From Verrucomicrobiota bacterium (GTDB taxonomy: Bacteria > Verrucomicrobiota > Verrucomicrobiia > Opitutales > UBA953), in contig JAURFU010000014.1 in assembly GCA_030834165.1 (NCBI GenBank), positions 1-40,649 on the forward strand: DNA of 40,649 bases, given 5' to 3'. Position numbers and translations under genes: made by a program. Positions 4,821-39,808 of this stretch are shown in pieces; position 1 is the stretch's first letter; every line of letters begins with the position of its first letter. The notes under the pieces are model-generated. The model was not told the origin of the DNA and made no database searches. It saw only the letters and a list, made by a program, of their open reading frames with translations.

Positions 4821-6278
4821 ATGCTCCACCCTCTCCGCGAAGCCCAGCTCAGCCTCCAGACGCGCCGCACGTTCCTCAGCAGCGTCGGCCAGTTCAGCCT
4901 CGGCGCCATCGCCCTCCACGCGCTGCAGGCCGACGCCTTCGGCGCCTCCTCCGTCGCCGACAACCCGCTGGCCCCTCGGAAGCCGCACTTCAAGCCCAAG
5001 GCCAAGCGCGTCATCTACCTCCACATGTCGGGCGGCCCGCCCAACCTCGACATCTTCGACCACAAGCCGGAGCTCGTGAAACGCAACGCGCAGGACTGCC
5101 CCGACTCGTTCCTCAAGGGAAGGACCTTCGCCTTCACCACCGGCGTGCCCAAGCTCATGGGCAGCCCGCGCACGTTCAAGCAATACGGCCAAGGAGGCCT
5201 CTGGATGAGCGACGCCGTCCCGAACTTCCACAAGGTCGCCGACGATGTCACGCTGCTGAAGGCGATGCATACGGACCAGTTCAACCACGCCCCCGCCGAA
5301 CTGCTCCTCTTCACCGGACATAACCGTCAAGGCCGCCCCTCCATGGGCTCCTGGGCGACCTACGGCCTCGGCACGGAGAACCAGGACCTCCCGGGCTTCG
5401 TCACGATGATCTCCAACGGCGTGCAGCCCAGCGGCGGCCAGGGTTGCTGGGGCTCCGGCTTCATCCCTTCCGTCTTCCAAGGCGTCCAGTGTCGCAGCAA
5501 GGGCGACCCCGTCCTCTTCGCCAATGACCCGCCCGGCATGACCCGCGACCTGCGTCGCGCCACGCTCGACGCGCTCAAGGACCTGAACCAGCGCCAGCAG
5601 GACGAACTCGGCCACGCCGAGACGGTCACGCGCATCGCCCAATACGAACTCGCCTTCCGCATGCAGGCCAGCGTGCCCGAGGTCATGGACATCTCCAAGG
5701 AGAAGCCCGCGACCCTCGAGGCCTACGGCGCCACCCCCGGCGCGGCCAGCTTCGCCAACAACTGCCTGCTCGCCCGTCGTCTCGTCGAGAAAGGCGTTCG
5801 CTTCGTGCACCTCTTCGACTGGGGCTGGGACTTCCACGGGACCAACCCCAAGGAGGACATCCGCGACGGACTCACCGCCAAGATGGCCGCGACCGACAAG
5901 CCCGTCGCCGCGCTCATCAACGACCTCAAGGAACGCGGATTGCTCGAGGATACGCTCATCGTCTGGGGCGGCGAATTCGGCCGCACGCCTTTCCGCGAGG
6001 GACGTACCTCGAAGGGGCAGGTCCTCGGCCGCGACCACTACCCGGACTGCTTCACCATCATGATGGCCGGCGGCGGCGTGAAGGGCGGTTTCCAGTTCGG
6101 CGAAACGGACGAGATGGGCTTCGGCGGCGTGAAGGACAAGGTCCACGTCCACGACCTGCAGGCCACCATCATGCACCTCCTGGGCTTCGACCACGAACGC
6201 CTCACCTACCGCTTCCAAGGCCGTGACTATCGTCTCACCGACGTCCATGGCCATGTCGTGAAGGAGATCCTGAGTTAG
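4821..6278 (+). CDS. DUF1501 protein, module A (Tat-exported alkaline-phosphatase-like fold)
   Basis: Protein of 485 aa of the DUF1501 family, related to the alkaline phosphatase/sulfatase superfamily. A twin-arginine leader (TRRTFLSSVG, about residues 15-24) implies export in folded form. Candidate metal-site motifs are [35 protein letters not shown] and HDLQATIMHLLG, ending in the family-typical YRFQGRDYRLTDVHG. Catalytic activity of the family is not established. It follows PSD1-A and is probably its partner. The stop codon TAG is itself part of the GGGCTAG repeat that begins at 6275. Confidence 0.9.
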   Translation: MLHPLREAQLSLQTRRTFLSSVGQFSLGAIALHALQADAFGASSVADNPLAPRKPHFKPKAKRVIYLHMSGGPPNLDIFDHKPELVKRNAQDCPDSFLKGRTFAFTTGVPKLMGSPRTFKQYGQGGLWMSDAVPNFHKVADDVTLLKAMHTDQFNHAPAELLLFTGHNRQGRPSMGSWATYGLGTENQDLPGFVTMISNGVQPSGGQGCWGSGFIPSVFQGVQCRSKGDPVLFANDPPGMTRDLRRATLDALKDLNQRQQDELGHAETVTRIAQYELAFRMQASVPEVMDISKEKPATLEAYGATPGAASFANNCLLARRLVEKGVRFVHLFDWGWDFHGTNPKEDIRDGLTAKMAATDKPVAALINDLKERGLLEDTLIVWGGEFGRTPFREGRTSKGQVLGRDHYPDCFTIMMAGGGVKGGFQFGETDEMGFGGVKDKVHVHDLQATIMHLLGFDHERLTYRFQGRDYRLTDVHGHVVKEILS

Positions 6279-6365
6279 GGCTAGGGCCAGGGACAGATCT
6301 TACAACCGCACCTAATATAACTAGCCCTAGCCCCAGCCCTAGCCCCAGCCCTAGCCCTAGCCCTA
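6275..6365. repeat. inverted GGGCTAG / CTAGCCC word arrays between modules A and B
   Basis: TTAGGGCTAGGGCCAGGG starts in the DUF1501-A stop codon. After about 28 nt of unrelated AT-richer sequence, six CTAGCCC/CCAGCCC units (6321-6365) follow and end 4 nt before the next ATG. The two arms are reverse complements over about 17 nt with one mismatch, so RNA or single strands could fold into a long hairpin. The right arm is longer than the left and offers several pairing registers. Confidence 0.8.
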
Positions 6366-6369
6366 TCCG

Positions 6370-9300
6370 ATGTTCCGTCCACTTTGCCTGCTTCTCATCT
6401 CGGCTTCCGCCTTCGCCGCCGAAGACATCCGCTTCAACCGCGACATCCGGCCGATCCTCTCGGAGAACTGCTTCTACTGCCACGGACAGGACCCGAAGCA
6501 TCGGGAGGCGGACCTACGTCTCGACGTCCGTGATGAGGCCGTGAAGGCCCACGACGGCGTCACGGCGATCGTGCCCGGCAAACCCGAACAGAGCGAGATG
6601 CTGAAGCGCCTGCTGTCGCACGATCCGGACGACCAGATGCCGCCGCCCGAATCCAACCGCAAGGTCACGCCGGCGCAGATCGAACTCATCCGACGCTGGA
6701 TCGCCCAAGGCGCCCCTTACGAGAAGCACTGGTCCTTCGTCCCACCGGAGCGAGCGCCCGCACCTAAGGTGGCTGACGCATCCTGGGCCAGGCAGCCTAT
6801 CGACCGCTTCGTATTGGCGAAGCTCGAAGCCGAGGGACTCAAACCCTCCGCCGCCGCCTCGCCTGCCGCCTGGCTCCGCCGGGCCTCCTTCGACCTGACG
6901 GGCCTGCCGCCCACGCCGGCCGAGATCGAGGCCTTCGAGGCTGAGACGACCTTGAAAAGCGATGCGGCCTATGCCGCCGCCGCCGACCGCCTCCTGGCTT
7001 CGCCCCGCTTCGGCGAGCGCCAAGCGCAGGAGTGGCTCGACGTCGCCCGCTACGCCGACACGCACGGCTTCAACAACGACTCCGCCCGCTCGATGTGGCG
7101 CTGGCGCGACTACGTCATCGAGTCCTTCAACGCCAACGTGCCGTTCGACCGCTTCGTCACCGAGCAGCTTGCCGGCGACCTGCTGCCGAAACCGACGCTC
7201 GACCAGAAACTCGCCACGGCCTTCAACCGCAACCACGTCATCAACAGCGAAGGCGGCATCATCGACGAGGAATACCGTGTCGAATATGTCGCCGACCGCG
7301 TCCGCACCACGAGCACCGCCCTCCTCGGCCTGACGATGGAGTGCGCCCGCTGCCACGACCACAAATACGACCCGATCAGCCAGAAGGACTACTATCGGAT
7401 GTTCGCGTTCTTCAACAACGTGCACGAATACGGCGAAGACGGCCGTATCGCCAACGCCGTCCCCCTGCTCGTGACGCCTACTCCCGAGCAACAGCGACGC
7501 CTACGGGAAATGGATCAGCGCATGGAGGCGATCGACCTGAAGCTCCAAGCCACGCCGGCTCCTGCCGCCGTGCCCGCCGACCTGCGTGCGCGTCTCACCG
7601 CCGAGGACGCCAAGCTTCAGCCCAAGAGCCCGAAGCCGGCCAAGCCGGCCGAGGCCCGCCTGCTGGCCAAGGACGCCGACGTGGATGCCAAACGCGGCAC
7701 GACGCTCTCGGTCTGGTTCAAGGCGAAGACGGCCTCGCTGGACGCACCGATCATCAGCGCCTTGGACCGCTCCGGCAACCCCGCCGCGGTCAGCTACGGC
7801 GGCGGACGCGAACTCCGCCTCGTCGGCGAGGAACTTGAATGGGCCGCGAGCCAGCGCTACCCGGCTTATGCGACGATCGTCCGTACGGTCGGTGCGAAGA
7901 TCCGCCCCGGAACCTGGCATCAGGTCGCCGTGCACATCCACGGCAAGGAGAACGCATCGACGATCGCGTTGTTCGTCGACGGCGAGGAAGTCCCCACCCA
8001 GATCCGCCATGACGGCGTGTCCGGCGCCCCCGCCAAGCGCGACTGGCTCCTCGGCGCCGACGGCAAGGCCAAGCCCTTCGACGGCGAGGTCAGCGGCTTC
8101 CGCACCTATCCCTCCCTGCTCAAGTCCGGGCAGATCCGCCACGCCTACTGGCTGCAGTCGACCGATAAGCTCACCGCCGAACAGCGGACCGTGGCCGACC
8201 GAGGCATCGCCCGACGTCACACCGGCAACAACCTAGCCCTGCAGACCGAGCGCGACACCCTCTGGACTGAGCGCCTGGCCTTCATCCGAAATCTACCGAC
8301 CACGATGGTGATGGAAGAGATGCCGACGCCCCGCCAGGCCTACGTCCTCACCCGCGGCAACTACGACGCCCATGGGGAAAAGGCGGACCCAGGCATGCCG
8401 GAGCAATTGATCGCACCTTGGCCCCAGGATGCGCCGCGTAACCGTCTCGGCCTCGCCCGCTGGTTCCTTCAGCCGCAGCACCCGCTCACCGCCCGCGTGG
8501 TCGTCAACCGCTTCTGGGCGCAGCTCTTCGGCGTGGGACTGGCGAAGAGCGTCGAAGATTTCGGCACGCAAGGCGAATGGCCCAGCCATCCTGAGGTGCT
8601 CGACACCCTGGCCCGCGACTTCGTCGACGGCGGCTGGGACGTGAAGAAGCTCTTCCGTAGCATCGTCCTGTCGTCGACCTACCGCCAGACCAGCGACGCC
8701 ACGCCGGCCCTGTATGCCCGCGACCCGGAGAACCGCCTGCTCGCCCGCGGTCCGCGTGTGCGCCTGACCTCCGAGCAGATCCGCGACCAAGCCCTCGCGG
8801 TCTCCGGCCTGCTGGCCGAGAAGATCGGCGGACCGAGCGTCCGTCCCTACCAGCCCGAAGGCCTCTACAAAGGCATCGTGGTCGACGCCCCCTACCCCAG
8901 CACGACCTGGGAACTCGGCAAAGGTGATGAACTCTACCGCCGTAGCCTTTACACCTTCTGGAAGCGTACGGTCCCCCATCCGGCGATGCTGACCTTCGAT
9001 TCGCCGGACCGTGAATTCTGCAGCGCCCGTCGCTCGCGCACCAACACGCCTTTGCAGGCGCTGGTGCTCTGGAACGAGACCGGCTACCTCGAAGCCTCCC
9101 GTAAACTCGCCGAACGCATGCTCAAGGAAGGCGGCCCCGATGACGCCGCCCGCACGGCCTTAGCCTTCCGTCTCGCCACCGGCCGCGCTCCCCGTCCCGC
9201 CGAGATCGAGGTTCTCGTCCGTACGCTCGCCCAGCTCCGCACCGATTTCGCGGCCCGCCCGGACGATGCCGCCAAGCTCGTCAAAGTCGGCGCCTCCGTC

Positions 9301-9393
9301 CCCGACCCGGCCCTGCCCGCCGTCGAACTCGCGGCCGCCGCCGGCGTCGCGAACCTGATCCTCACGTTGGACGAGACCATCACCAAGAACTGA
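6370..9393 (+). CDS. PSD1 / planctomycete-type cytochrome c protein, module B (LamG insert)
   Basis: Protein of 1007 aa. Order: Sec signal (1-17); cytochrome domain with C34-F-Y-C37-H38; DUF1549 with second haem motif C325-A-R-C328-H329 followed by DHKYDPI; a LamG/concanavalin-like insert (about 437-595, with TLSVWFKAK, WHQVAVHI and ALFVDGEEV); and DUF1553/PSD1 from about 691 (NRLGLARWFLQPQHPLTARVV begins there). The LamG insert is absent from module A at the same position and could bind a glycan. It starts 5 nt after a CTAGCCC array with no Shine-Dalgarno. DUF1501-B follows after 5 bp, so the pair is clearly co-transcribed. Confidence 0.9.
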   Translation: MFRPLCLLLISASAFAAEDIRFNRDIRPILSENCFYCHGQDPKHREADLRLDVRDEAVKAHDGVTAIVPGKPEQSEMLKRLLSHDPDDQMPPPESNRKVTPAQIELIRRWIAQGAPYEKHWSFVPPERAPAPKVADASWARQPIDRFVLAKLEAEGLKPSAAASPAAWLRRASFDLTGLPPTPAEIEAFEAETTLKSDAAYAAAADRLLASPRFGERQAQEWLDVARYADTHGFNNDSARSMWRWRDYVIESFNANVPFDRFVTEQLAGDLLPKPTLDQKLATAFNRNHVINSEGGIIDEEYRVEYVADRVRTTSTALLGLTMECARCHDHKYDPISQKDYYRMFAFFNNVHEYGEDGRIANAVPLLVTPTPEQQRRLREMDQRMEAIDLKLQATPAPAAVPADLRARLTAEDAKLQPKSPKPAKPAEARLLAKDADVDAKRGTTLSVWFKAKTASLDAPIISALDRSGNPAAVSYGGGRELRLVGEELEWAASQRYPAYATIVRTVGAKIRPGTWHQVAVHIHGKENASTIALFVDGEEVPTQIRHDGVSGAPAKRDWLLGADGKAKPFDGEVSGFRTYPSLLKSGQIRHAYWLQSTDKLTAEQRTVADRGIARRHTGNNLALQTERDTLWTERLAFIRNLPTTMVMEEMPTPRQAYVLTRGNYDAHGEKADPGMPEQLIAPWPQDAPRNRLGLARWFLQPQHPLTARVVVNRFWAQLFGVGLAKSVEDFGTQGEWPSHPEVLDTLARDFVDGGWDVKKLFRSIVLSSTYRQTSDATPALYARDPENRLLARGPRVRLTSEQIRDQALAVSGLLAEKIGGPSVRPYQPEGLYKGIVVDAPYPSTTWELGKGDELYRRSLYTFWKRTVPHPAMLTFDSPDREFCSARRSRTNTPLQALVLWNETGYLEASRKLAERMLKEGGPDDAARTALAFRLATGRAPRPAEIEVLVRTLAQLRTDFAARPDDAAKLVKVGASVPDPALPAVELAAAAGVANLILTLDETITKN

Positions 9394-9398
9394 CCGCC

Positions 9399-10853
9399 AT
9401 GTCCTGCCACCAATACGAGATCATGCACTCAAGGCGCGAGTTCCTGCAGAAAACCGGCCTGGGTCTCGGCGCCGGCGCCCTCGCCCACCTGCTCGGCGGC
9501 TGCGCGACTTCCGATGTCGCCGGCGATCCGCACATCAACGGACTACCGGGCCTGCCTCACTTCGCCCCGAAGGCCAAGCGCGTCATCTGCCTCTTCCAGT
9601 CCGGCGGCCCTTCGCACCTGGACCTGCTCGACCCCAAGCCCGAGCTCGAGCGCCAGTTCGACAAGGACCTGCCTGATTCCGTCCGCCGCGGCCAACGCAT
9701 CACCGGCATGGTGGCCTCGCAAGCCCGACTCGCCTGCCAGCCGAGCCGTTTCAAATTCACCCGTCACGGCAAGGCCGGCACCGAGATCAGCGAACTCCTC
9801 CCGCACATCGGCGGCATCGCCGACGAGATCTGCGTGGTCCGCTCGATGCACACCGAGGCGATCAACCACGACCCCGCGATCACCTTCTTCCAGACCGGCA
9901 GCCAGCTGCCCGGCCGGCCAAGCATGGGCGCATGGACCGATTACGGACTCGGCCGCATGAGCGACAACCTGCCGTCGTTCGTCGTGCTTGTCTCGACCAA
10001 CAAGGACCGCTCCGGACAAGGCCTGCTCGCCCGCCTCTGGGGCAGCGGCTTCCTGCCCAGCGCCCACCAAGGCGTCCAGTTCCGCGGTGCCGGCGAGCCG
10101 GTGCTATATCTCCGCGATCCGGAAGGGCTCACCCGCGAACAGCGCAAGAAGCTGCTCGAGGGCGCCAACGAACTCAATCGCCTCAATCTCGCCTCCGCCG
10201 GCGACCCGGAGATCTCCGCCCGCATCAGCCAGACCGAGATGGCCTACCGCATGCAGGCCAGCGTCCCGGAACTCATGGACCTCGCCGGAGAAAGCAAGGC
10301 GGTCATGGAGAGCTACGGGCCCGACGTGAACACCCCGGGATCCTTCGCGCGCAATGCCCTGCTGGCCCGCCGCCTCGCCGAGAAAGGTGTGCGCTTCGTC
10401 CAGCTCTACCACCGCGACTGGGACCACCACGGAGGCCTCCACGACCAGCTGCCCAAGATGGCCCGTGACGTCGACCAGCCCGCGGCGGCCTTGGTCAAGG
10501 ACCTCAAGCAACGCGGCATGCTCGACGACACGCTCGTCATCTGGGGCGGGGAGTTCGGCCGGACTCCTTACGCGCAGGGCGGCGCCAACCGACAGAAATA
10601 CGGACGCGACCACCACGGCAAAGCGTTCTCGATCTGGATGGCCGGCGGCGGCATCAAGCCGGGCATGACCTTCGGCAGCACCGACGACTTCGGCTTCAAC
10701 ACGCAGGAAAACCCGGTCCATATCCACGACCTTCAGGCGACCATCCTGCACTGCCTCGGCATCCATCACGAACGCCTCACCTATCGCTTCCAAGGCCGCC
10801 AGTTCCGACTGACGGATGTGCATGGGCGCGTCGTTAAGCAGATCCTTAGTTAG
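9399..10853 (+). CDS. DUF1501 protein, module B (probable Tat lipoprotein)
   Basis: Protein of 484 aa from the first ATG. An internal ATG at 9423 (MHSRREFLQ) is equally possible and puts the twin-arginine motif at the usual distance from the start. The Tat leader SRREFLQKTGLGLGAGALAHLL runs into LGGC, a lipobox-like sequence, so this copy is probably a membrane-anchored lipoprotein, unlike the other three DUF1501 proteins. Motifs QSGGPSHLDLLD, HRDWDHHGG, GGEFGRTPY, GRDHHGKAF and HDLQATILHCLG match the family. The stop TAG lies inside a GGGCTAG repeat, as for module A. Confidence 0.9.
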   Translation: MSCHQYEIMHSRREFLQKTGLGLGAGALAHLLGGCATSDVAGDPHINGLPGLPHFAPKAKRVICLFQSGGPSHLDLLDPKPELERQFDKDLPDSVRRGQRITGMVASQARLACQPSRFKFTRHGKAGTEISELLPHIGGIADEICVVRSMHTEAINHDPAITFFQTGSQLPGRPSMGAWTDYGLGRMSDNLPSFVVLVSTNKDRSGQGLLARLWGSGFLPSAHQGVQFRGAGEPVLYLRDPEGLTREQRKKLLEGANELNRLNLASAGDPEISARISQTEMAYRMQASVPELMDLAGESKAVMESYGPDVNTPGSFARNALLARRLAEKGVRFVQLYHRDWDHHGGLHDQLPKMARDVDQPAAALVKDLKQRGMLDDTLVIWGGEFGRTPYAQGGANRQKYGRDHHGKAFSIWMAGGGIKPGMTFGSTDDFGFNTQENPVHIHDLQATILHCLGIHHERLTYRFQGRQFRLTDVHGRVVKQILS

Positions 10854-11047
10854 GGCTAGAGCCAGGGCTGGGGCTAGGGCCAGCTACACAAACTCAAAGA
10901 AAGACGGGAACCGGGATGTTAGCCGGGCCCTGGGTAGGGATGACCGGCTCGGTCATCCTAGGCGTGCGGGCCGCACGCCCCTACCTATCTTCCAGATCAG
11001 GCTTAATTCAAACTGGCCCTAGCCCTAGCTCAGACCCTAGCCCTATT
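10851..11047. repeat. inverted GGGCTAG / CTAGCCC arms flanking a structured centre
   Basis: The left arm (10851-10884) has several GGGCTAG/GGGCCAG words. The right arm (11013-11047) has CTGGCCCTAGCCCTAG and CTAGCCCTA. GGGCTAGGGCCAG pairs exactly with CTGGCCCTAGCCC over 13 bp, and TAGGGCTAG pairs with CTAGCCCTA further out. Between the arms lie a CTCAAAG...GGGAACCGG module (10893-10915) and the three-way element at 10933-10985. Confidence 0.8.
10933..10985. repeat. three-way-junction repeat element, copy 1
   Basis: Outer arms GGTAGGG (10933-10939) and CCCTACC (10979-10985) enclose two hairpins: GGATGACCG/CGGTCATCC (10938-10946 with 10950-10958) and GGCGTGC/GCACGCC (10961-10967 with 10973-10979). 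A homologous copy in opposite orientation lies at 14269-14322. Resembles a REP-type or small palindromic mobile repeat. Confidence 0.8.
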
Positions 11048-11050
11048 TCG

Positions 11051-11080
11051 CTTTATCATCCATCCTTAATCTCCCATCTT
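11051..11080 (+). repeat. CTTTATCATCCATCC leader word before DUF1080 gene
   Basis: CTTTATCATCCATCC (11051-11065) is repeated exactly at 39765-39779 before the DUF6807 gene, and in both places it follows CTAGCCC words and is trailed by a degenerate ATCTNCCATC. It sits 28-43 nt before the start codon and may belong to a shared promoter or leader. Confidence 0.6.
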
Positions 11081-11093
11081 CGGCCCCATCCCC

Positions 11094-12068
11094 ATGCGTC
11101 TCCTCGCCCTCCTGCTCGCGACCTCGCTCTTCGCCGCCGATGCGCCGAAGGCCAAAGCTCCCGCCGCCCCGAAGCCGCCGGAGCCGCCGGTCTACCTGAC
11201 GGAGAAAGAAGCGGCCGAAGCCGGCGAAGACCCCCGCCTGCAGGGCGAATTCGCCAACGCCAAGATGGGCGCCAACGTGATCGCCCTCGGCAAAGGCGAA
11301 TACCGGCTCGTGCTCTTCAAGGGCGGCCTGCCCGGCGCCGGCTGGGACGGCACCCCGAAGATCGAAGTCGAAGGCAAGCGTGACGGCGCGACGGTCACTT
11401 TCCAGGACAGCATCGACTCGGCCACGCTCACCGACGGCGTCCTGAAGATCAAGAGCATGCCGGTCGCCCTCAAGCGTACCATCCGCCACAGCCCTTCCGA
11501 AGGCCTCGCCGCTCCCAAGGGCGCGACCATCCTCTTCGACGGCAAGAACGCCGACGCCTGGGTGGACGGCAAGATCGACCCGCGTGGCTTCCTCGAAGCG
11601 AACACCAAGACCAAGCAGGCGTTCACCGACTTCACGCTGCACCTCGAATTCTTCCTGCCCTTCAAGCCCCTCGGCCGCGGCCAGGGACGCGCCAACAGCG
11701 GACTCTACCTCCAGCATCGCTACGAGGTCCAGGTCCTCGACAGCTTCGGACTCAAGGGACTCGATAACGAGTGCGGCGGCATCTACAAGAACGCCGCCCC
11801 CAAGGTGAACATGTGCTTCCCGCCCCTGCAGTGGCAGACCTACGACGTCGAATTCACCGCCGCCAAGTTCGACCAGGACGGCAAGAAGACCGCCAACGCC
11901 GTCGTCAGCGTCCGCCACAACGGCGTGCTCGTCCACGACAACCTCGAGCTCAAGGGCGCGACCCCCGGCGGCGCCTTCAAGACCGAAGTCCCCGCCCCCG
12001 GCCCCTTCTACCTGCAAGGCCACGGCAATCCCGTCGTCTACCGGAACATCTGGGTGGTAGCCAAATAA
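11094..12068 (+). CDS. exported DUF1080 protein (3-keto-disaccharide hydrolase-like)
   Basis: Protein of 324 aa with a Sec signal peptide (1-15), a Pro/Ala/Lys-rich linker (18-33), and a concanavalin-like DUF1080 domain (about 140-324). The motifs ILFDGKNADAW, NSGLYLQHRYEVQVLDSFG and GPFYLQGHGNPVVYRNIWV are typical. Characterised DUF1080 proteins act on 3-keto-glycosides, cleaving the glycosidic bond after oxidation at C3; the domain is also found as a likely binding module. Residues 40-135 form a poorly characterised N-terminal beta domain. No Gfo/Idh oxidase is adjacent, so a full 3-keto pathway is not shown here. Monocistronic between two inverted-repeat intergenic regions. Confidence 0.88.
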   Translation: MRLLALLLATSLFAADAPKAKAPAAPKPPEPPVYLTEKEAAEAGEDPRLQGEFANAKMGANVIALGKGEYRLVLFKGGLPGAGWDGTPKIEVEGKRDGATVTFQDSIDSATLTDGVLKIKSMPVALKRTIRHSPSEGLAAPKGATILFDGKNADAWVDGKIDPRGFLEANTKTKQAFTDFTLHLEFFLPFKPLGRGQGRANSGLYLQHRYEVQVLDSFGLKGLDNECGGIYKNAAPKVNMCFPPLQWQTYDVEFTAAKFDQDGKKTANAVVSVRHNGVLVHDNLELKGATPGGAFKTEVPAPGPFYLQGHGNPVVYRNIWVVAK

Positions 12069-12070
12069 GC

Positions 12071-12150
12071 GAGGACCTGAGGCCCCGAGGATTCGAGGAA
12101 TGAGGGAATGGGTGCCTTTGTACCAACTTGCCTCGAGTCCTCAGGTCCTC
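12071..12150. repeat. inverted repeat GAGGACCTGAGG / CCTCAGGTCCTC
   Basis: A perfect 12-bp arm pair (12071-12082 with 12139-12150), extended by a partial TTCGAGG/CCTCGAG pairing (12092-12098 with 12131-12137). It occupies almost the whole gap between the DUF1080 stop and the next gene. The architecture matches the GGGCTAG regions but uses an unrelated word. No U-tract follows. Confidence 0.8.
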
Positions 12151-12168
12151 TAGCCCTCATGTCCTCCC

Positions 12169-14223: not shown

Positions 14224-14364
14224 GCGGTAAGCGGTTAGCGGTTAGGTAAATCCCTTCCGTTGCATCGAGGTAGGGGCGTGCGGCCCGCGCGCCCGCGGCT
14301 GACCGGGTCGGTCAGCCCTACCCAATACAGATTTTAGCGGTTTGCGGTTGGCGGTCAGGAAATC
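14221..14364. repeat. GCGGTTAG direct word arrays flanking the three-way element
   Basis: GCGG-TTAG words run from 14221 to about 14252 and again from 14332 to 14364, in the same orientation, each ending in an AAATC. They flank the three-way element at 14269-14322. Related GCGGTTAGCGG arrays recur after stop codons at 20624-20646 and 37482-37512. Unlike the GGGCTAG regions the flanks are direct, not inverted, repeats. Confidence 0.75.
14269..14322. repeat. three-way-junction repeat element, copy 2 (inverted orientation)
   Basis: GGTAGGG (14269-14275) and CCCTACC (14316-14322) enclose GGGCGTGC/GCGCGCCC (14274-14281 with 14287-14294, one G-U) and GGCTGACCG/CGGTCAGCC (14297-14305 with 14309-14317). 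The order of the two inner hairpins is the reverse complement of copy 1, and base changes on the two sides of each stem largely compensate (GATGACC/GGTCATC versus GCTGACC/GGTCAGC). Confidence 0.8.
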
Positions 14365-14381
14365 ACCAGTCTCAAGGGAGG

Positions 14382-14418: not shown

Positions 14419-14436
14419 ACTTACCCTGCCGCCTGC

Positions 14437-14475: not shown

Positions 14476-14484
14476 TTTCCGCAT

Positions 14485-19202: not shown

Positions 19203-19203
19203 C

Positions 19204-31710: not shown

Positions 31711-34683
31711 ATGCGGATCCGCCTTATAACGCCCCTGCTGCTAACCTCGACAGCCCTCTGTGCCGCGGTCTCGTTCGAGTCGGAGGTGAAGCCGATCTTC
31801 GAGAAACACTGCGTGGAATGCCACGGGCCGAAGAAGCAGAAGAGCGACTTCCGACTCGATGACCGCGAGGTCGCCCTGCACGGCGGCGAGAGCCACGCCC
31901 CCAACATCCTGCCGGGCAAGCCGACCGAAAGCCCGCTCCTGAAGTTCGTGACGACCGATGACCGCGACACACGCATGCCGCCCAAGGGCGAAAGGCTGAG
32001 TGCCGCCGAGGTCGCTACGCTCAAGCGCTGGATTGCAGAAGGCGCGGTCTGGCCGGAATCCGCCTCCCCCAAGAAGGCAGACCCGCTGGACTGGTGGTCG
32101 CTCAAGCCACTCAGCAAGCCCTCCCTGCCCTCCGGCGACGACGCCCATCCGATCGACCGCTTCATCCTGGCCAAGCTCAAGGAGAAGAACCTGCAGCCCT
32201 CCGGCACCGCCGACGCCCGCACGATCCTACGGCGCCTCAACTTCGACCTGATCGGCCTGCCGCCCACCGCCGAGGAACTCGCGGCTTTCGAGAAGGATGC
32301 CGCCCAAGACCTGCCCGCCGCCATCGGCCGCGCCGCCGACCGCCTGCTGGCTTCGCCTCGGTACGGGGAACGCTGGGGCCGTCACTGGCTTGACGTGGTC
32401 CACTACGGCGACACCCACGGCTACGACAAGGACAAGCTCCGGCCCAACGCCTGGCCGTATCGCGATTATGTCATCCGCGCCTTCAACGAGGACAAGCCCT
32501 ACGCCCGCTTCGTCGAAGAACAGCTGGCGGGTGACACGCTCTACCCGCAGTCGGCCGACGGGCACATCGCCCAAGGTTTCATCTCGGCCGGCCCCTGGGA
32601 CTTCATCGGCCATGCCGAACTCCCCGAGACCAAGCTCGACGGCAAAATCGCCCGCGCCCTCGACCGTGACGACATGGTCTCGAATACGACCGGGGCCTTC
32701 CTCGCGACGACCTCCCAATGCGCCCGCTGTCACCACCATAAGTTCGACCCGATCAAGCAGGAGGATTACTATCGCCTGCAGGCCGTCTTCGCCGCCCTCG
32801 ACCGGGCCGACAAGACCTTCGACACGGACCCGGAGGTCGCCAAGCGACGCACGGCATCGCTCGCCGAACGCACGCGGCTCGACGGCGAGATCAAGGCGCT
32901 GAACGACAAGTCCGCCTCGACCGACTCACGCCGGGTTACGCTCATCGGCAAGATCATCGACGAACTCAAGCAAGGGACCGCCGCCGTCGAACGTCCGGAA
33001 TTCGGCTACCATGGCGCCATCTCGAAAGACCAGCTCGCCACCAAGTGGGTGCAGGTCGACCTCGGCGTCGCCCGCGAGCTCACCGAGGTCATCCTGACGG
33101 GCTGCCACGATACCTTTAACAATATCGGCGCCGGCTTCGGCTTCCCGGTCCGCTACAAGGTCGAACTGTCCGATGATGCCAAATTCGCCCAAGGGGTCAC
33201 CGTCATCACCGATCTCACCGGCGCCGACGTCCCCAATCCCGGCGTGAAGCCGCAGCGCTTCCCCCTGGCCAAGCTGAAGGGCCGCTACCTGCGCGTGACG
33301 GCCACCAAGCTGGCCCTACGTAAGAACGACTACATCCTGGCCCTCGCGGAACTGCAGGCCATCGACCCCAAAGGGCGCAACGTCGCCCTGGGAGCGAACG
33401 TGACGTCGCTCGACAGCATCGAAGCCGGTCCGCGCTGGGGTCGACTCAATCTGACCGATGGTTATTTCTACGGCCCGAAGTCCGAACGCGACGACGCCCG
33501 CATCGCCCTCCTGGAACGCGAACGCGCCGAGATCCGCAAGGGCGCGCTCAAGACGGATCCCGCGGCCGCCCGGAAACTGGACGGGCTCACCGCCGCCCGC
33601 GCCAAGGTCGCCAAGGAACTCTCCGCGCTGCCCGCCCCGCAGGTCGCCTACGTGGGTACGATTCATAAAGGCGCCGGCGCCTTCGCCGGTACCGGCGCCA
33701 ACGGCGGCAAGCCCCGGCCGATCTTCGTGCTGAAACGCGGCGACGTCAGCAGCCCCGACAAGGAAGTCGGCCCCGGCGCCCTGCCTTTCGCCAAGGAACT
33801 GACTTCCCAGTTCGACCTGCCCAAAGACGCCCCCGAAGGCGCCCGTCGCGTCGCCCTGGCCAGATGGATCACCGATGACCGCAATCCGCTCACCTGGCGC
33901 GTCATCGTGAACCGCGTCTGGCATTACCATTTCGGCCGCGGACTGAGCGATACGCCGAACGATTTCGGTCGCATGGGCAGCCAGCCCACCCATCCCGAGC
34001 TGCTCGATTGGCTGGCGGTCGATTTCCGCGACGGCGGCCAGTCGCTCAAGAAGCTCCACCGTCTCATCGTCACGAGCGCGACCTACCGCCAGTCCTCCCT
34101 CGGGAATCCCGCCAATGAGAAGATCGACACGAGCAACGCCCTCCTCTGGCGGATGAACCGTCGCAAGCTCGAGGCCGAGGCGGTCAGCGACTCCGTGCTC
34201 GCGGTCGCGGGCAAGCTCGACCTCACGATGGGCGGCCCTGGCTTCCAGGACTTCATCATCGAGAAGCCCCAGCACTCGCCGCACTATGAGTATGACCAGC
34301 ACGACGTCGAGGACCCGAAGTCCCACCGCCGCTCGGTCTACCGCTTCATCGTCCGCTCCCAACCGCAACCCTTCCTGACCGTCTTGGACTGCGCCGACCC
34401 CTCGATGTCGGTCGCCAGCCGCAATGAGACCGTCAACGCCTTGCAGGCCCTGGCGATGCGCAACAACCGCCTGACGGTCGCGATGGCCAGGCACTTCGCC
34501 GCCCGCGTCTCCAAAGACGCCTCCACCCCGGCCGCCCAGATCGACCTGGCTTTCCGACTGGCGCTCAGCCGTCCGCCATCGGCGGACGAAACCAAGGCCA
34601 TGTCGGGCTACTTAACCGAACACGGTCTGGCGAACCTCTGCCGGCTGATCTTCAACCTGAACGAGTTCAACTTCGTCGACTGA
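31711..34683 (+). CDS. PSD1 / planctomycete-type cytochrome c protein, module D (F5/8C insert)
   Basis: Protein of 990 aa. Order: Sec signal (1-19); cytochrome domain with C34-V-E-C37-H38; DUF1549 with second haem motif C337-A-R-C340-H341 followed by HHKFDPIK; an F5/8 type C (discoidin-like) insert at about 427-554 (WVQVDLGVARELTEVILTG, GRYLRVTATKL, LALAELQAID); a charged helical linker; and DUF1553/PSD1 from about 712 (NPLTWRVIVNRVWHYHFGRG). The F5/8C domain replaces the LamG domains of modules B and C at a comparable place and may bind a glycan. DUF1501-D follows after 2 bp. Confidence 0.9.
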   Translation: MRIRLITPLLLTSTALCAAVSFESEVKPIFEKHCVECHGPKKQKSDFRLDDREVALHGGESHAPNILPGKPTESPLLKFVTTDDRDTRMPPKGERLSAAEVATLKRWIAEGAVWPESASPKKADPLDWWSLKPLSKPSLPSGDDAHPIDRFILAKLKEKNLQPSGTADARTILRRLNFDLIGLPPTAEELAAFEKDAAQDLPAAIGRAADRLLASPRYGERWGRHWLDVVHYGDTHGYDKDKLRPNAWPYRDYVIRAFNEDKPYARFVEEQLAGDTLYPQSADGHIAQGFISAGPWDFIGHAELPETKLDGKIARALDRDDMVSNTTGAFLATTSQCARCHHHKFDPIKQEDYYRLQAVFAALDRADKTFDTDPEVAKRRTASLAERTRLDGEIKALNDKSASTDSRRVTLIGKIIDELKQGTAAVERPEFGYHGAISKDQLATKWVQVDLGVARELTEVILTGCHDTFNNIGAGFGFPVRYKVELSDDAKFAQGVTVITDLTGADVPNPGVKPQRFPLAKLKGRYLRVTATKLALRKNDYILALAELQAIDPKGRNVALGANVTSLDSIEAGPRWGRLNLTDGYFYGPKSERDDARIALLERERAEIRKGALKTDPAAARKLDGLTAARAKVAKELSALPAPQVAYVGTIHKGAGAFAGTGANGGKPRPIFVLKRGDVSSPDKEVGPGALPFAKELTSQFDLPKDAPEGARRVALARWITDDRNPLTWRVIVNRVWHYHFGRGLSDTPNDFGRMGSQPTHPELLDWLAVDFRDGGQSLKKLHRLIVTSATYRQSSLGNPANEKIDTSNALLWRMNRRKLEAEAVSDSVLAVAGKLDLTMGGPGFQDFIIEKPQHSPHYEYDQHDVEDPKSHRRSVYRFIVRSQPQPFLTVLDCADPSMSVASRNETVNALQALAMRNNRLTVAMARHFAARVSKDASTPAAQIDLAFRLALSRPPSADETKAMSGYLTEHGLANLCRLIFNLNEFNFVD

Positions 34684-34685
34684 CC

Positions 34686-36173
34686 ATGAACGACTCCCCT
34701 TACCATCGTCAGTCCGGCGTCACCGCCATGAACCGTCGTGACTTCCTGTTCACCTCCGGCGGCGGCCTCGGCGGCATCGCCCTCGCCAGCCTGCTCGGAC
34801 ACGAAAGACTCCTCGGCGCCACGCCCACCAGCGGCATCCTCCACGCGCCGGCCAAGGCCAAACGCGTCGTCCAGCTCTTCATGGCCGGCGCCGCCAGCCA
34901 TGTCGACATGTGGGACCACAAGCCGCTGCTTGAGAAGAAGCACGGCGAAAAGTGGGACCCGGGCGAAGCGGTCGAGCTGTTCCAGAGCAGCCCCGGCTCG
35001 ACCTTCGCGTCGCCCTGGAAGTTCAAGCGCTATGGCCAATCGGGCAAGATGCTCAGCGACATCGTCGCGCCTCTCGGAGACGTCGCGGATGACATCGCCT
35101 TCGTGCATGACATCGTCGGCCGCTCCGGCGTGCACAGCCAGGCCACCTTGCTGCAGTCCACCGGCTTCCTGATCCCGGGCTATCCGAGCATGGGCGCCTG
35201 GGTGAGTTACGGCCTCGGCTCGCTCAACGACAACCTGCCGACCTTCGTGGTCCTGCCCGACATCCGCGGTCTGCCGTCCAACGGCCAGAAGAACTGGGAC
35301 TCCGCCTTCCTCCCCGGCCAGAACCAGGCCACCCAGGTGCGCGTCAACGCTCCGAAGCCGATCGACAACCTTGCCCCGCCGCCCGCGGATTACATCACGC
35401 CCTCGGGCGAGACCGCCGGACTCGCACTCCTCGACAAGCTCAACCGGGCCCACGCGGATTCGCGACCGGGAGACCCGCGGCTCGAAGCCCGCATCCGCAG
35501 CTACGAGCTCGCCGCCAAGATGCAGCTCGCCGCCCCCGAAGCGCTCGACCTGTCCAGGGAGTCCGAGAAGACGCTGGCCCGCTATGGCATCGATAACTCG
35601 ACCAAGGTCTGGCCGAAAGAGATCAACGTCGCCGAAGAGCAGGACGCCTTCGGGCGCAAGTGCCTGACCGCCCGACGCCTGCTCGAGCGCGGCGTCCGCT
35701 TCGTGCAGATCTGGTCCGGGAACGACAACGGCTTTCCCCGTCGGAACTGGGATTCGCACGAGGACATCGCCCGCGACCACGCCCCGCTTTCCCTCGGCAT
35801 GGCCAAGGGCACCGCGGCGCTCATCCAAGACCTCAAGGACCGGGGCATGTTCGAGGACACCCTCATCCTCTGGACCACCGAGTTCGGCCGCATGCCCTGC
35901 GCCCAGGGCGGCAAGGGGCGCGACCACAATCCCTTCGTCTTCACCAACTGGCTCGCCGGCGGCGGCATCAAGGGCGGCGTCACCCACGGCCAGAGCGACG
36001 AATGGGGCTACAAGCCCGCCGATCGCAAACGCTTCACCCAAGGCTACGACATCCACGCCACCGTCCTGCACCTCCTCGGCCTCGACCACGAGAAGCTGAC
36101 CTTCCGCCACAACGGCGCCGACCGCCGCCTCACGGACGTGCATGGGCACGTGATCAAAGATATCCTGAGCTAA
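34686..36173 (+). CDS. DUF1501 protein, module D
   Basis: Protein of 495 aa from the first ATG. An internal ATG at 34728 (MNRRDFLFTSGGG) would place the Tat motif close to the start and is possible. Motifs: AGAASHVDMWD, NWDSHED, TTEFGRMPC, GRDHNPFVF and YDIHATVLHLLG. Compared with the other copies it has TEFGRMP instead of GEFGRTP and AGAASH instead of SGGxxxx at the first motif, so its active site may differ. Exported as a folded protein and probably the partner of PSD1-D, whose stop lies 2 bp upstream. Confidence 0.9.
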   Translation: MNDSPYHRQSGVTAMNRRDFLFTSGGGLGGIALASLLGHERLLGATPTSGILHAPAKAKRVVQLFMAGAASHVDMWDHKPLLEKKHGEKWDPGEAVELFQSSPGSTFASPWKFKRYGQSGKMLSDIVAPLGDVADDIAFVHDIVGRSGVHSQATLLQSTGFLIPGYPSMGAWVSYGLGSLNDNLPTFVVLPDIRGLPSNGQKNWDSAFLPGQNQATQVRVNAPKPIDNLAPPPADYITPSGETAGLALLDKLNRAHADSRPGDPRLEARIRSYELAAKMQLAAPEALDLSRESEKTLARYGIDNSTKVWPKEINVAEEQDAFGRKCLTARRLLERGVRFVQIWSGNDNGFPRRNWDSHEDIARDHAPLSLGMAKGTAALIQDLKDRGMFEDTLILWTTEFGRMPCAQGGKGRDHNPFVFTNWLAGGGIKGGVTHGQSDEWGYKPADRKRFTQGYDIHATVLHLLGLDHEKLTFRHNGADRRLTDVHGHVIKDILS

Positions 36174-37478: not shown

Positions 37479-37481
37479 GTC

Positions 37482-37512
37482 TTAGCGGTTAGCGGCTGGC
37501 GGTTAGCGGCTG
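37482..37512 (+). repeat. GCGGTTAG / GCGGCTGG word array
   Basis: TTAGCGG, TTAGCGG, CTGGCGG and TTAGCGG units in tandem, beginning 3 nt after the LamG stop codon. GGCTGGCGGTTAGCGG is shared with 20624-20642. A short CTGGGA/TCCCAG pair (37510-37515 with 37540-37545) follows. Confidence 0.7.
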
Positions 37513-37577
37513 GGATACATGCCGCCACGATACCCAAAATCCCAGCAAAACCGAGGTCCGTACTGATGTTTCCGGTG

Positions 37578-37583
37578 TATAAT
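37578..37583 (+). promoter_or_regulatory. consensus -10 (TATAAT) before GH36 gene
   Basis: A perfect TATAAT, the best -10 in the window, 56 nt before the ATG. There is no recognisable -35 at the right distance (GGTCCG at 37555), so an activator or alternative sigma factor may be needed. Confidence 0.5.
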
Positions 37584-37593
37584 CGGAACAAAA

Positions 37594-37638
37594 CCCTCCT
37601 GAGGGGCATCGGATATTACAGCCTCTATCGGCTCCGAT
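37594..37638 (+). promoter_or_regulatory. two-hairpin structured leader of the GH36 mRNA
   Basis: CCCTC-CT-GAGGG (37594-37605) is followed by a bulged stem: ATCGG (37608-37612) with CCGAT (37634-37638), and AGCC (37620-37623) with GGCT (37630-37633). The second stem ends 1 nt before the start codon, so folding could limit initiation. No known riboswitch consensus was recognised. Confidence 0.4.
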
Positions 37639-37639
37639 C

Positions 37640-39505
37640 ATGCGCCTCCGCCTCTCGAGCCTCATCGCTCTGCTCCTCGCGACGATCGCGATGCTGAAGG
37701 CGGAAGATGGACTGAAAGTCCTACGTCCCGATTCACCTTTACGCGAAAAAGCCCCGGGACTTCGTGTCACTGCCAACGCTTACCCTGAATTCGAGGCCAC
37801 CGAGTGGCAACTCCGTCTCCGCAGCCCTGAGACCGGCGCTTCTCCGCTTTACGAAAATCTGCAGTCGGCTGACTTCGACGTAAGTTTTCCTTCGAACTCC
37901 CCCGTCAGGCTCCATTGGAGCAAGGGGAGCCACTCCGAACCAAGCGACTTCGAGCCAAAGGTCGAAAAGTTGACCATAGGGAAGGCGTTCGTCCTGGAAT
38001 CCTTCGGTGGACGCTCCTCGGACGGAGTCATGCCTTACTTCAACCTGTGCGGCGAAGGCGGAGGCTTGATCTTGGCGGTCGGCTGGACGGGCGACTGGAA
38101 GGCCACCTTCACACTCCAGGAAAACGGCAAGGTCAGGGTCATCGCGGGCCTTAAGCGCACGCGGTTCCGACTCACCCCCGGCGAGGAGGTTCGGCTGCCC
38201 TCGATCCTGGTCATGAACTACCGCGGCGACCACATGGCCGGACAGAACCAGTTCCGTCGGCTGATGCTGGCGCAATTCACCCCGCAGAACCATCCCCCGA
38301 TGACCCTCATGCCGGTGCAGGCCGGCGTGCATGGCATCTTCCCTTTCAATGTCACCTCGGAGGAGAAACTGGTTAAGCTGGCCGCCGACATCATGGCACT
38401 CAAGTTACCGCTCGATTGCTACCACCTCGATGCGGGCTGGAACGAAGGCGGCTTTCCGAAAGGCCAGGGTAATCCCCAGGCCGACCCCGCCCGCTTTCCA
38501 AACGGGCTCGCGCCGGTGGGGGCCGCCGTGCGCAAGACGGGGATGCGCTTCCTCGCCTGGTTCGAGCCGGAGCGTGCCATGCGCGGCACCTGGCTCCACC
38601 GCGAGCATCCCGAGTGGCTGCTAAAGCCAACAGGAACCCCCGACGGGCTTCGCTATCAAGAAAGGGATGGCTTCCACCTTCTGGATCTCGGAAATCCGCA
38701 GGCACGGAAGTGGGTCATAGACTCCATCTCCGAGGAGATCAGTCGCTCGGACCTGAGCTTCTACCGACAGGACTTCAACCTCTACCCCGCCTACTTCTGG
38801 CATACCGATGAGAAGCTGGATGAGGTCGGCCTACGCGAGATCCGCCACATCAACGGTCTCTACGCTTTCCTGGACGAACTCGCCCGGCGTCACCCCGGCC
38901 TGATCCTCGATAACTGCGCCGCGGGAGGCCGGCGTCTCGATTTCGAGATGATGCGACGATGCATCGTCCTCTGGCGAAGCGACAGCACCTGGGGCGCCAA
39001 GACCTTCCCCCAGAATGTGCAAGCCATGACCCACGGCCTTTCCTACTGGCTACCCTTGCACGGACTAGGCGCCGCCGCCACCGACGATCTCGCCCTTCGG
39101 AGCGGGATGGGAGCCTGCGGGGGGTTCTCGATCAACTACCGTGACCCGAAGGCCGTCCTGGCCCTGCGTAAGCACCTAGATCGTTATCTCAAGATACGCC
39201 CGATCTTCACCGGAGACTATTACCCGCTGACCGCCCACAGCTTAGATAAGACGGCTTGGATCGCCTGGCAGTTCCATCGTAGCGATCTTAACGAAAGCGT
39301 CGTGCAAGCCTTCCGCCGTCCGGAGGCCGTGAGCGAAACACTCACCGTCAAACTTCAAGGCCTCATCCCGCAGCAACGCTACGAGGTCGAAGACTTCGAA
39401 GGGAGTAAAGAAGTCCTCACCGGCGCCGAGCTCATGCAGGGCTACGCGATCACGCTACGCGAGAAGCCCGACTCCGCCGTCCTGCTGATCAAGGCGGCGA
39501 AGTGA
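37640..39505 (+). CDS. GH36-like alpha-galactosidase (exported)
   Basis: Protein of 621 aa with a Sec signal (1-21). N-terminal beta-supersandwich (about 25-215), then a TIM barrel with VQAGVHGIFPFNVTSEEKLV, YHLDAGWNEG, FLAWFEPERAM, then FYRQDFN with the probable nucleophile D378, and NCAAGGRRLDFEMM followed by WRSDST with the probable acid/base D448. The 70-residue spacing fits GH36. It probably releases terminal alpha-galactosyl (or related) residues. In retaining GH36 enzymes the nucleophile motif is often KWD; here it is RQD. Codon use looks less GC-rich than its neighbours (more TTA, CTA, AAA), and it has the best -10 box, which together hint at separate acquisition. It stands alone. Confidence 0.87.
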   Translation: MRLRLSSLIALLLATIAMLKAEDGLKVLRPDSPLREKAPGLRVTANAYPEFEATEWQLRLRSPETGASPLYENLQSADFDVSFPSNSPVRLHWSKGSHSEPSDFEPKVEKLTIGKAFVLESFGGRSSDGVMPYFNLCGEGGGLILAVGWTGDWKATFTLQENGKVRVIAGLKRTRFRLTPGEEVRLPSILVMNYRGDHMAGQNQFRRLMLAQFTPQNHPPMTLMPVQAGVHGIFPFNVTSEEKLVKLAADIMALKLPLDCYHLDAGWNEGGFPKGQGNPQADPARFPNGLAPVGAAVRKTGMRFLAWFEPERAMRGTWLHREHPEWLLKPTGTPDGLRYQERDGFHLLDLGNPQARKWVIDSISEEISRSDLSFYRQDFNLYPAYFWHTDEKLDEVGLREIRHINGLYAFLDELARRHPGLILDNCAAGGRRLDFEMMRRCIVLWRSDSTWGAKTFPQNVQAMTHGLSYWLPLHGLGAAATDDLALRSGMGACGGFSINYRDPKAVLALRKHLDRYLKIRPIFTGDYYPLTAHSLDKTAWIAWQFHRSDLNESVVQAFRRPEAVSETLTVKLQGLIPQQRYEVEDFEGSKEVLTGAELMQGYAITLREKPDSAVLLIKAAK

Positions 39506-39808
39506 TTGGGTAGCTCGCGGCACTCGTTTCAGGTGGCGGGTAATAAGCGCTCAAAAGGAGACCGGATGATTGGCTGATGCATGACTACCCCCTAGGTCGG
39601 CACGCAGTGCCGTCTCTACCTCATGCACCGCAGCATTCATTCCGGTTTCCGGTCTCCCTTTGAGCCCTGCCTCTACCCGTGTCCACGTGTCACCATGCCC
39701 ACGTGCCTCCTTGATCGCATCCGCTAGCCCTAGCCCTGGCCCTGGCCCCAGCCCTAAAACCATCCTTTATCATCCATCCCTGATCTTCCATCCTGCTTCA
39801 ACAGCCCC
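39506..39808. repeat. 303-bp gene-free mosaic between GH36 and DUF6807 genes
   Basis: No gene accepted. Contents in order: GGTGGCGGGT-like words (39530-39541); a 117-bp imperfect inverted repeat (39549-39665); the CCACGTGTCACC module (39683-39707); CTAGCCC/CTGGCCC words (39722-39756) with no matching left arm after the GH36 stop; and the CTTTATCATCCATCC word (39765-39779) with its degenerate ATCTTCCATC follow-up, ending 14 nt before the ATG. Confidence 0.75.
39549..39665. repeat. 117-bp imperfect inverted repeat with central hairpin
   Basis: GCTCAAAAGGAGACCGGA (39549-39566) is the reverse complement, with one mismatch, of the right end (39648-39665). TGCATGA/TCATGCA pairs inside (39578-39584 with 39621-39627). 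The centre has CGGCAC-GCA-GTGCCG (39598-39612) flanked by GGT and CTCTACC, recalling the three-way elements. The right arm also matches the GGGAAACCGG module of 21899 and 10893. Confidence 0.75.

Follow-up and report, generated by a model that had tools for sequence, protein, structure and literature searches.

The window, i.e., the whole 40,649-nucleotide stretch of Verrucomicrobiota contig JAURFU010000014.1 analyzed here, yielded one tRNA and nothing else in an Rfam search, and the gaps between its protein genes hold short recurring words, arranged as arms and designated by letters that were assigned partly by eye. Upstream of the first paired arms lies a single arm of word I (CCCTACCCCTGCCCCTACCCC; 4788-4810, with its G-rich arm on the - strand). 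A simple, ORF-less palindrome of word B follows, whose left arm (6275-6296, + strand) overlaps a TAG stop codon and whose right arm (6321-6365, - strand) stands just before the next start. The next B pair has its left arm at 10850-10883 (+) and its right arm at 11013-11045 (-), and encloses a degenerate arm of word C (CTCAAAG..GGGAACCGGGATG; 10893-10924, +), read by eye for a family defined separately, and two facing GTAG-REPs (a BIME; 10933-10985); a single arm of word H (CTTTATCATCCATCCTTAATCTCCCATCTTC; 11050-11080, -) lies beyond it. At 12069-12106 (+) a left arm of word P2, an array of GAGGACC, directly follows a stop codon, and the right arm (12131-12168, -) directly precedes an ATG. Both arms of the homologous gap can be I or T words in congeners. 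An array of word A (GCGGTTA; 14224-14246, +) likewise directly follows a stop codon and is succeeded by a REP pair (BIME; 14269-14322) and by a second A array (14336-14359, +).

The remaining gaps are denser. Between 20625 and 20928 we located an A arm (20625-20646, +), a palindrome of word E (20655-20756, bounded by its outermost word hits) and single arms, all on the - strand, of words U (20785-20801), G (CCACGTGTCACC..; 20852-20881) and F (TTTGCACC; 20906-20928). A further B pair (21857-21889, +, and 21988-22022, -) encloses a degenerate C arm (21899-21921, +) and is followed by an F arm (22030-22052, -). A single A array (37484-37514, +) lies just after a stop codon, and the last gap holds a C palindrome (39550-39664) whose loop contains a degenerate REP-like hairpin (at about 39594-39620) and then, on the - strand, a G arm (39677-39708) and single B (39723-39755) and H (39763-39795) arms. 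The first-pass annotation had described inverted arms across such gaps, and these are present at 6279-6369, 10854-11093, 12069-12168 and 21850-22078. At 14224-14484, however, the two GCGGTTAG arrays share one orientation, so that the second is not an inverted partner of the first, and 37479-37639 has one arm only; neither is an inverted repeat.

To compare gaps with genes, words were counted on both strands of a 746-kb (Opitutales-like) sample of the organism's own genome, comprising 369 gaps, 59.1 kb of intergenic and 680 kb of coding DNA, and compared with the average of 30 resamplings of the gap sequence under an order-2 Markov model. GGGCTAG had 65 intergenic copies in 27 gaps (8.4 simulated, 3 coding), TTTGCACC had 35 in 19 gaps (3.3 simulated, 0 coding), CCTACCCC had 29 in 17 gaps (3.6 simulated, 12 coding) and GCGGTTAG had 15 in 11 gaps (2.7 simulated, 2 coding). 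Three further words were enriched on small counts of 2 to 4 copies each, with none simulated and none coding: CCACGTGTCACC (4 copies, 4 gaps), CTTTATCATCCATCC (2 copies, 2 gaps) and CTCAAAG..GGGAACCGG (2 copies, 2 gaps), the core of which, CTCAAAGGGA, had 12 intergenic copies (0.2 simulated, 1 coding). Since CCTGAGGGG alone had 3 copies versus 2.2 simulated, and 2 in coding DNA, it was not enriched. The recurring words are thus real and, but for CCTGAGGGG, all those listed are strongly intergenic in these 746 kb. They are also present elsewhere in the genome and in congeners, so the possibility that they were limited to the window fails. The C-word pattern (≤2 mismatches) was found in 33 of 37 genomes of the genus, the organism's own included, and 16 of these 37 carried the B-word pattern in its exact form; neither pattern occurred in 20 genomes from other families.

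The arms consist of arrayed, degenerate units of 6-9 bp and are G-rich on the 5' side, and in 92 of 94 same-family arm pairs the G-rich arm leads. In three genomes palindrome pairs were nested in 33 cases and crossed in 2. Many palindromes sit in the loops of others and therefore form concentric mosaics, with G-rich arms on the left and C-rich arms on the right. The earlier picture of shuffled intergenic modules that build long inverted repeats, and that ordinary terminators do not explain, accordingly extends to the genome as a whole. The C family has an 83 bp asymmetric consensus with two different inner halves (three genomes), and the F family has two arm types, again with a long asymmetric consensus. 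Because these consensus sequences are long and asymmetric, head-to-head, telomere-like addition at breaks, an idea that came from the polarity, was dropped. Among 60 C pairs, 38 were simple copies and 12 had an insert in the loop with both halves intact; breakpoints fell at the loop in 75 of 119 cases, a biased count, since the variable loop is where single arms stop. No excess of target-site duplication over shuffled pairs was found at the 60 C elements.

Terminators, insulators and RNA stabilizers had been suggested as roles for these palindromes, which would then be functional RNA elements (terminators, 3'-end stabilizers) under selection. Several observations are consistent with this: two palindromes of the window fold far better than shuffled sequences (z -5.7 for the whole P2 gap and -5.6 for the C palindrome), arms abut stop and start codons, arm density is higher in convergent than in divergent gaps, and the inner hairpin of F arms is kept despite changed stems (stem ≥4 in 26 of 29, versus 15% of shuffled sequences). 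However, divergent gaps hold palindromes as well, at densities of 3.4, 7.3 and 5.2 arms per kb in three samples of genomes, the simple B gap folds just slightly better than its shuffles (z only -1.5) and the words of homologous gaps vary between congeners. U-tract hairpins, compared in codirectional or convergent gaps of at least 100 bp in the three genome samples, were no commoner in mosaic gaps (46/208) than in others (34/122). Of 53 such hairpins in the 208 mosaic gaps, 40 touched no arm, 8 were REP hairpins followed by T and 5 touched a word arm; where the order was read, the hairpin lay before the first arm in 16 cases and after its start in 20. Since T-runs follow these 8 REP hairpins, some REPs may act as terminators. 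The absence of U-tracts reported at first pass holds for the word arms of the window's gaps as read and has these exceptions elsewhere, and termination or insulation is not supported as a general role. On balance, we regard a functional-RNA role of the palindromes as quite unlikely.

Complete elements were found where the words surround a gene. At 77 of the 92 genus loci read, a gene of PF05635 (23S_rRNA_IVP/S23, four-helix-bundle) lies inside inverted arms with a local inverted score of at least 22, the other 15 scoring below 22. These 92, plus L119, were drawn from 138 matches in the genus, the remaining 45 being left out. By batch, this score was reached at 29 of 32 loci (two of them the organism's own genes), 33 of 40 and 15 of 20, versus 1 of 32 and 1 of 40 in direct orientation (1 of 20 at ≥18), and inverted arms surrounded 26 of 1,040 genes overall in three genome samples. 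Words around PF05635 genes were A, B, C, E, F, G, H, I, J, N, P and U, H weakly; word K, around which no such gene was found, is the sole exception among the listed non-REP families. For the words of the window, genes lie inside arms of A (L307, L316, L318, L352, L353, L355-L357, L365, L369), B (L391, L119, L406), E (L402), F (L398-L400, L407-L409), G (L295-L298 and others), I (L376, L383, L388), P2 (L379, L381) and U (L394-L397), with H-like arms at L390 (score 22) and L401 (score 17); the G arm at 39677-39708, compared by eye, resembles the arms of congeners' G-type genes. The organism's own genome has two PF05635 genes (E 1.8e-29 and 2.6e-24), one of which occupies precisely the loop of a 530-bp C element, the other lying between N arms (score 20); for the C67 protein there is a match to 2gsc chain A (E 2.7e-20). 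A PF05635 match is present in 32 of the 33 C-word genomes. The C element occurs with and without the gene, and in one neighborhood gene-less T palindromes (L245, L247) stand where L246 and L248 keep it. In the window, the palindromes and single arms are all ORF-less, none being complete with a gene. No rRNA was found in the 93 sources of PF05635 genes, where only 3 tRNAs matched. Outside the genus, similar arms flank PF05635 genes at 21 of 30 loci in Verrucomicrobiota and 17 of 30 in other phyla, although outside Verrucomicrobiota 9 of 30 flanks match in direct orientation too; PF05635/S23-family genes occur in 143 of 193 Verrucomicrobiota genomes.

Two systems are thus mixed in these gaps: the word elements with a PF05635 gene and the known GTAG-REPs with their RAYT. 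The GGTAGGG modules (module D), at 10933-10985 and 14269-14322 in the window, are short hairpins with GTAG at the foot, in inverted pairs, and correspond to GTAG-REP/BIMEs as described in PMC3733652. A RAYT ORF (L180:1408-1842; PF01797, E 1.3e-6) occurs in the genome with BIMEs on both sides that are near-identical to the pair at 10933-10985. Accordingly, the statement that no described class matches the modules was wrong for GGTAGGG and stands for the other words, for which a literature search found no description. Both systems combine one gene with many gene-less palindromes, but the other words are untagged and surround PF05635 rather than Y1 genes. It could be argued that RAYT/TIRYT (Y1) transposases mobilize all modules as REP-like or TIR repeats, with the four-helix-bundle genes as passengers in repeat-rich gaps; the BIME-flanked RAYT, the TIRtrons described in that source, the occurrence of Y1 matches in 28 of the 55 genus genomes and the lack of target-site duplication at the 60 C elements would all agree with this. 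However, words A-U have no GTAG tag, and in the 11 Y1 loci read (L180-L190) they did not form the inverted ends of any Y1 gene, L189 having words farther off; the three short-ORF loci (L180, L188, L189) adjoin GTAG-REPs and the other eight carry GGGTCAG-type palindromes. Further, PF05635 genes do lie inside the words, and G024, G027 and G029 hold many C words without a Y1 match, albeit in incomplete genomes. We therefore consider mobilization of all modules by Y1 transposases unlikely.

At shared loci with both flanks in common, the gene and both arms are replaced together. Where protein identity was ≥0.65, the word was the same in 98 of 101 pairs, and where it was <0.65 the word differed in 18 of 26; between L405, whose right arm is weak (score 19), and L406 the difference spans everything between the stop codon and the opposite arm's outer end. 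This two-flank count supersedes a one-flank cassette count (44/45, 81/81), replaced because G and J loci have only one common flank among the matches listed. On a protein tree of 81 rows (of 93 loci, 7 without a clear protein motif and 5 unlabelled were left out), 22 word labels required 23 changes, versus a minimum of 21 and a shuffled mean of 63.8, but this congruence is mostly orthology because the loci are largely syntenic. Mantel tests left out loci with an arm score <18. The first gave r 0.26 for word versus protein (19 of 5,000 permutations); between loci the correlation was weak to moderate and varied with word length, with 373 and 215 of 3,000 permutations as high in two groupings at K=3, 103 and 34 at K=4, and 22 and 11 at K=5. 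Strict co-evolution of protein and word was rejected, as the tree and the first Mantel test largely reflect orthologous loci and the per-locus test is weaker. Within a single synteny group the word is C, U or E depending on the species, and genomes in which the gene at that locus carries a different word still commonly contain C arms; scattered copies therefore do not simply track the present gene.

The concerted change of both arms in one gap between congeners, and the arms' structure as degenerate tandem arrays, could also have a local origin in slippage during replication and inverted-template switching at hairpins; words would then be shared through gene conversion or convergence, with the gene as a bystander. 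Such an origin is very unlikely, given the long, asymmetric, family-specific consensus of C and F, the recurrence of the same words across many gaps and species, and the enclosure of PF05635 genes by arms. Instead, we think it probable that the non-REP words are the paired ends of short selfish elements, the complete form of which is a PF05635 gene between inverted arms. Each gene lineage would have its own word, repeated as the degenerate units of the arms, and derivatives without the ORF, which would be the majority of copies, would persist either as both arms in a palindrome or as one stranded arm. The PF05635 protein may recognize the word of its own element, probably in hairpin form, and in this way help the cassette to spread or be exchanged, as is supposed for S23 elements in 23S rRNA hairpin loops. 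A reverse-transcriptase partner, an idea modeled on Avd of diversity-generating retroelements, was rejected as a general requirement, since of the 55 genus genomes just one has an RVT_1 match.

The closest known counterparts are the S23 intervening sequences of 23S rRNA, e.g., in Coxiella, which replace tetraloops of helices 9, 25, and 45, are regarded as selfish with their mobility unexplained, and carry genes of no known function, according to PMC4990558. The likeness lies in a PF05635/S23 four-helix-bundle ORF between complementary, stem-forming ends, in hairpin loops, as at the 77 loci above. Unlike these sequences, the present elements lie in spacers between protein genes, with no 23S rRNA helix insertion among the 93 sources, their arms are lineage-specific tandem word arrays, and their gene-less copies are dispersed through the genome and nested in one another. 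Short gene-less palindromes akin to larger coding elements are also described for MITEs and TIRtrons (PMC3733652). Here, too, gene-less copies of a coding element occur (the T palindromes and the C element). The words differ from MITEs in the lack of a known-family transposase and of target-site duplication and in arms made of short repeated units. Intergenic arrays of short units are familiar from the STRR/heptamer sequences of cyanobacteria. The TAACTGA repeats of Beggiatoaceae are similar arrays but almost all direct repeats, and the available part of that account draws no tie to a four-helix or S23 gene (PMC4679880).

More broadly, and as a tentative proposal that we hold to be possible rather than probable, PF05635 proteins may act as specificity factors in a widespread mobile system able to work without a known transposase and without its own reverse transcriptase, in which the protein reads its word in hairpin arms, drives spread or exchange of the enclosed DNA and fills spacers with that word. 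The S23 genes of 23S rRNA would then be an rRNA-dwelling branch, and the degenerate intergenic arrays of Verrucomicrobiota, Planctomycetota, Bacteroidota, and Acidobacteriota would be the footprint of the whole system; we know of no explanation for the degenerate short-repeat arrays between genes in these phyla. Joining PF05635 genes with repeat arrays gives each a testable role and suggests a route for the spread of intervening sequences in rRNA; within one genus, some twenty natural protein-word pairs could be used for binding assays. For genomes of this kind, it also means that reading intergenic hairpins by default as terminators or regulatory RNAs is unwarranted.

The own genome of the window (2.25 Mb in 150 contigs, 81% complete, the window being its contig C54) has Opitutae/Opitutaceae MAGs as its nearest named relatives in a one-protein comparison. 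Gaps of the window were read directly, and 746 kb of own-genome stretches were used for counts; since gene calling relied on a simple codon-usage script, gene starts are approximate. The first-pass annotation had held that the gaps are mosaics of recurring short words, and their intergenic character proved to exceed what composition predicts: eight of nine word patterns were above the order-2 Markov expectation in gaps and rare in genes (the enrichment of three of the eight consisting of counts of only 2 to 4), the exception being CCTGAGGGG, which showed no enrichment in gaps over that expectation. A search performed without prior words returned largely the same families among the top enriched intergenic 8-mers, e.g., AGGGCTAG (48 intergenic vs. 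2.0 expected; 1 coding) and TTTGCACT (35 vs. 1.2; 0 coding). On the basis of a manually compiled list of word families, the density of arms, i.e., G-rich or C-rich arrays of such units, per kb of spacer was 6.0 for the own genome and 10.3 and 7.2 for the congeners G015 and G016, whose samples were drawn from regions rich in word C; in coding DNA of the three, densities were 0.38 to 0.49 per kb. Long direct repeats of the window result from several pairs of large genes (2315-12068, 15288-20610 and 31711-36173), presumably DUF1549/DUF1553- and DUF1501-like. The gene at ~22079-23152 contains coding repeats in four copies with 171 bp spacing (22411-23042).

The GGTAGGG hairpins are GTAG-REPs, a system separate from the other words: a Y1 transposase (RAYT) ORF of the own genome (L180:1408-1842) has, on both sides, near-identical copies of the BIMEs, i.e., pairs of such hairpins, located in the window at 10933-10985 and 14269-14322. 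According to PMC3733652, GTAG-REPs are known from the PVC group and are abundant in Opitutus terrae. Longer Y1-like ORFs of congeners (L181-L187, L190) were seen near palindromes of type GGGGTCAGGC..GCCTGACCCC, which form another family of repeats in this genus.

A role as terminators had also been proposed for the mosaics. In gaps of at least 100 bp, divergent ones excluded, U-tract hairpins were present in 46 of 208 mosaic gaps vs. 34 of 122 other gaps, and 40 of the 53 such hairpins in mosaic gaps touched no arm, while 8 were REPs and 5 touched a word arm. Therefore, a class-wide terminator function was not borne out; termination may be the work of a small number of modules, chiefly REPs. 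T-runs come immediately after some GTAG-REP hairpins (C65:733 in the own genome; L262-L264 in G015), and such hairpins could serve in this way.

Genes of the four-helix-bundle family PF05635 (23S_rRNA_IVP/S23) and the word arms around them belong together. In the own genome, one gene occupies the loop of a 530-bp C element at C58:36515 (inverted-arm score 22) and a second, on contig C67, lies between N arms (score 20); both are PF05635, and the C67 protein has sequence similarity to XCC0516 (2gsc). Across the genus, PF05635 matches were found in 44 of 55 genomes (138 matches, 92 scored for flanks), and inverted flanking arms with a local score of at least 22 were present at 29/32, 33/40 and 15/20 loci in three sets. 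The same flanks in direct orientation yielded 1/32 and 1/40 at this threshold and 1/20 at a score of at least 18. Inverted flanks occurred at 3/320 other genes <700 bp and at 26/1,040 of all genes; at least one of these matches was merely a stretch of N, and the best of those listed were whole palindromes in neighbouring gaps. Swapped flank partners matched in 17%, since orthologs repeat the same words. Mosaic words A, B, C, E, F, G, H (weakly), I, J, N, P and U were all found as arms of PF05635 genes in the genus; K was not found around any such gene among the loci read. A PF05635 match was present in 32 of 33 genomes with C words and in 2 of 4 without them, one of these weak and partial. None of the 93 sources holding these genes gave an rRNA match.

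Beyond the genus, Verrucomicrobiota carried PF05635 in 143 of 193 genomes (almost all at least 90% complete), with arm words varying by genome. Among 30 of the best loci, inverted arms scored at least 18 in 21 and at least 22 in 11 (controls: swapped partners 3.9%, direct orientation 2/30). For genomes labelled as other phyla, 26 of 45 had a match, and the corresponding values at 30 loci were 17 and 11 (swapped partners 0.8%, direct orientation 9/30, the latter probably because some arrays are of low complexity).

The gap at window 12069-12168, bearing P2 arms, was compared with 21 congener loci printed after the homologous gene. These carried P2 on both sides (2 loci), I on both sides (6), I left with B right (1, L249), I left only (2), B and P2 left only (1), a gene-less T palindrome (2, L245 and L247), T arms with a PF05635 gene placed by the genus-wide PF05635 matches (2, L246 and L248), or no arms (5). 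Gene-less and gene-bearing T forms thus occupy the same place, and we read the former as loss of the ORF. Modules likewise differed among congeners in the gap after window gene 9399-10853. In 127 pairs of gene loci with both flanks in common, the word was the same in 98 of 101 pairs whose proteins were at least 65% identical and different in 18 of 26 below 65%. In the clearest pair (L405/L406), flanks were 98% and 94% identical, proteins 54%, and the arrays were GGGACA vs. GGGCTT/GGGCTA; homology stopped, on one side, with the stop codon and, on the other, with the outer limit of the opposite arm, the right arm of L405 being weak. Therefore, gene and arms are replaced jointly, as one cassette. 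On an ML tree of 81 proteins, 22 word labels required 23 changes, an agreement that is mostly inheritance because the loci are syntenic; the per-locus correlation between word and protein distance was weak to moderate. One gap of congener G019 (L240) has GGGACA on both sides in place of GGGCTA, and this word also flanks the PF05635 genes L359 and L405.

Within a gap, arms also follow a polarity. Same-family pairs had the G-rich arm first in 92:2 (own genome), 170:6 (G015) and 220:23 (G016) cases, where shuffling gave halves, and different-family pairs had G-rich before C-rich in 307:46, 546:73 and 457:65. Single arms mostly obeyed the rule too, with G-rich ones in the left half of the gap (58/69, 76/98 and 55/75 in the three samples) and C-rich ones in the right (70/81, 83/107 and 84/108). 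Since divergent gaps kept the G-rich-first order (9:0, 28:0, 25:0), polarity is not simply a product of transcription direction. Nested, crossed and side-by-side pairs, counted for families present once in each orientation, numbered 8:0:0, 17:1:7 and 8:1:2, respectively. Alignment defined family C as an ~83-bp element whose two halves differ slightly; 38 of 60 C pairs were simple copies, longer copies held other palindromes (REPs, E, U) in their loop, and in 12 both halves were intact around the insert. F arms (e.g., C58 22737) each had an inner hairpin, GGCC..GGCC or GGAGC..GCTCC, with stem kept (at least 4 in 26/29) and sequence varying; several F elements listed had one arm of each type. 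At C58 ~22.7-33.8 kb (L032), mosaics containing F and B arms recur in closely similar form in several gaps, a pattern like that expected of copying together with adjacent genes or of conversion from one gap to another.

We thus observed word-gene association, joint replacement, gene-bearing and gene-less forms at one place, and nesting. In the literature searched, with most subscription papers and preprints outside reach, there was no recognisable report tying PF05635 or four-helix-bundle genes to intergenic palindromes. RVT_1 was present in only 1 of 55 genus genomes, many of them incomplete, and a search for target-site duplications at 60 C elements found none. The C loops, and the replacement of rRNA tetraloops by IVS described in PMC4990558, suggest that insertion might occur at hairpin tips. 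The protein, in turn, may recognise the word of its own arms; since S23 of X. campestris forms a homopentamer (same source), an array of repeated units would fit such a multivalent protein.
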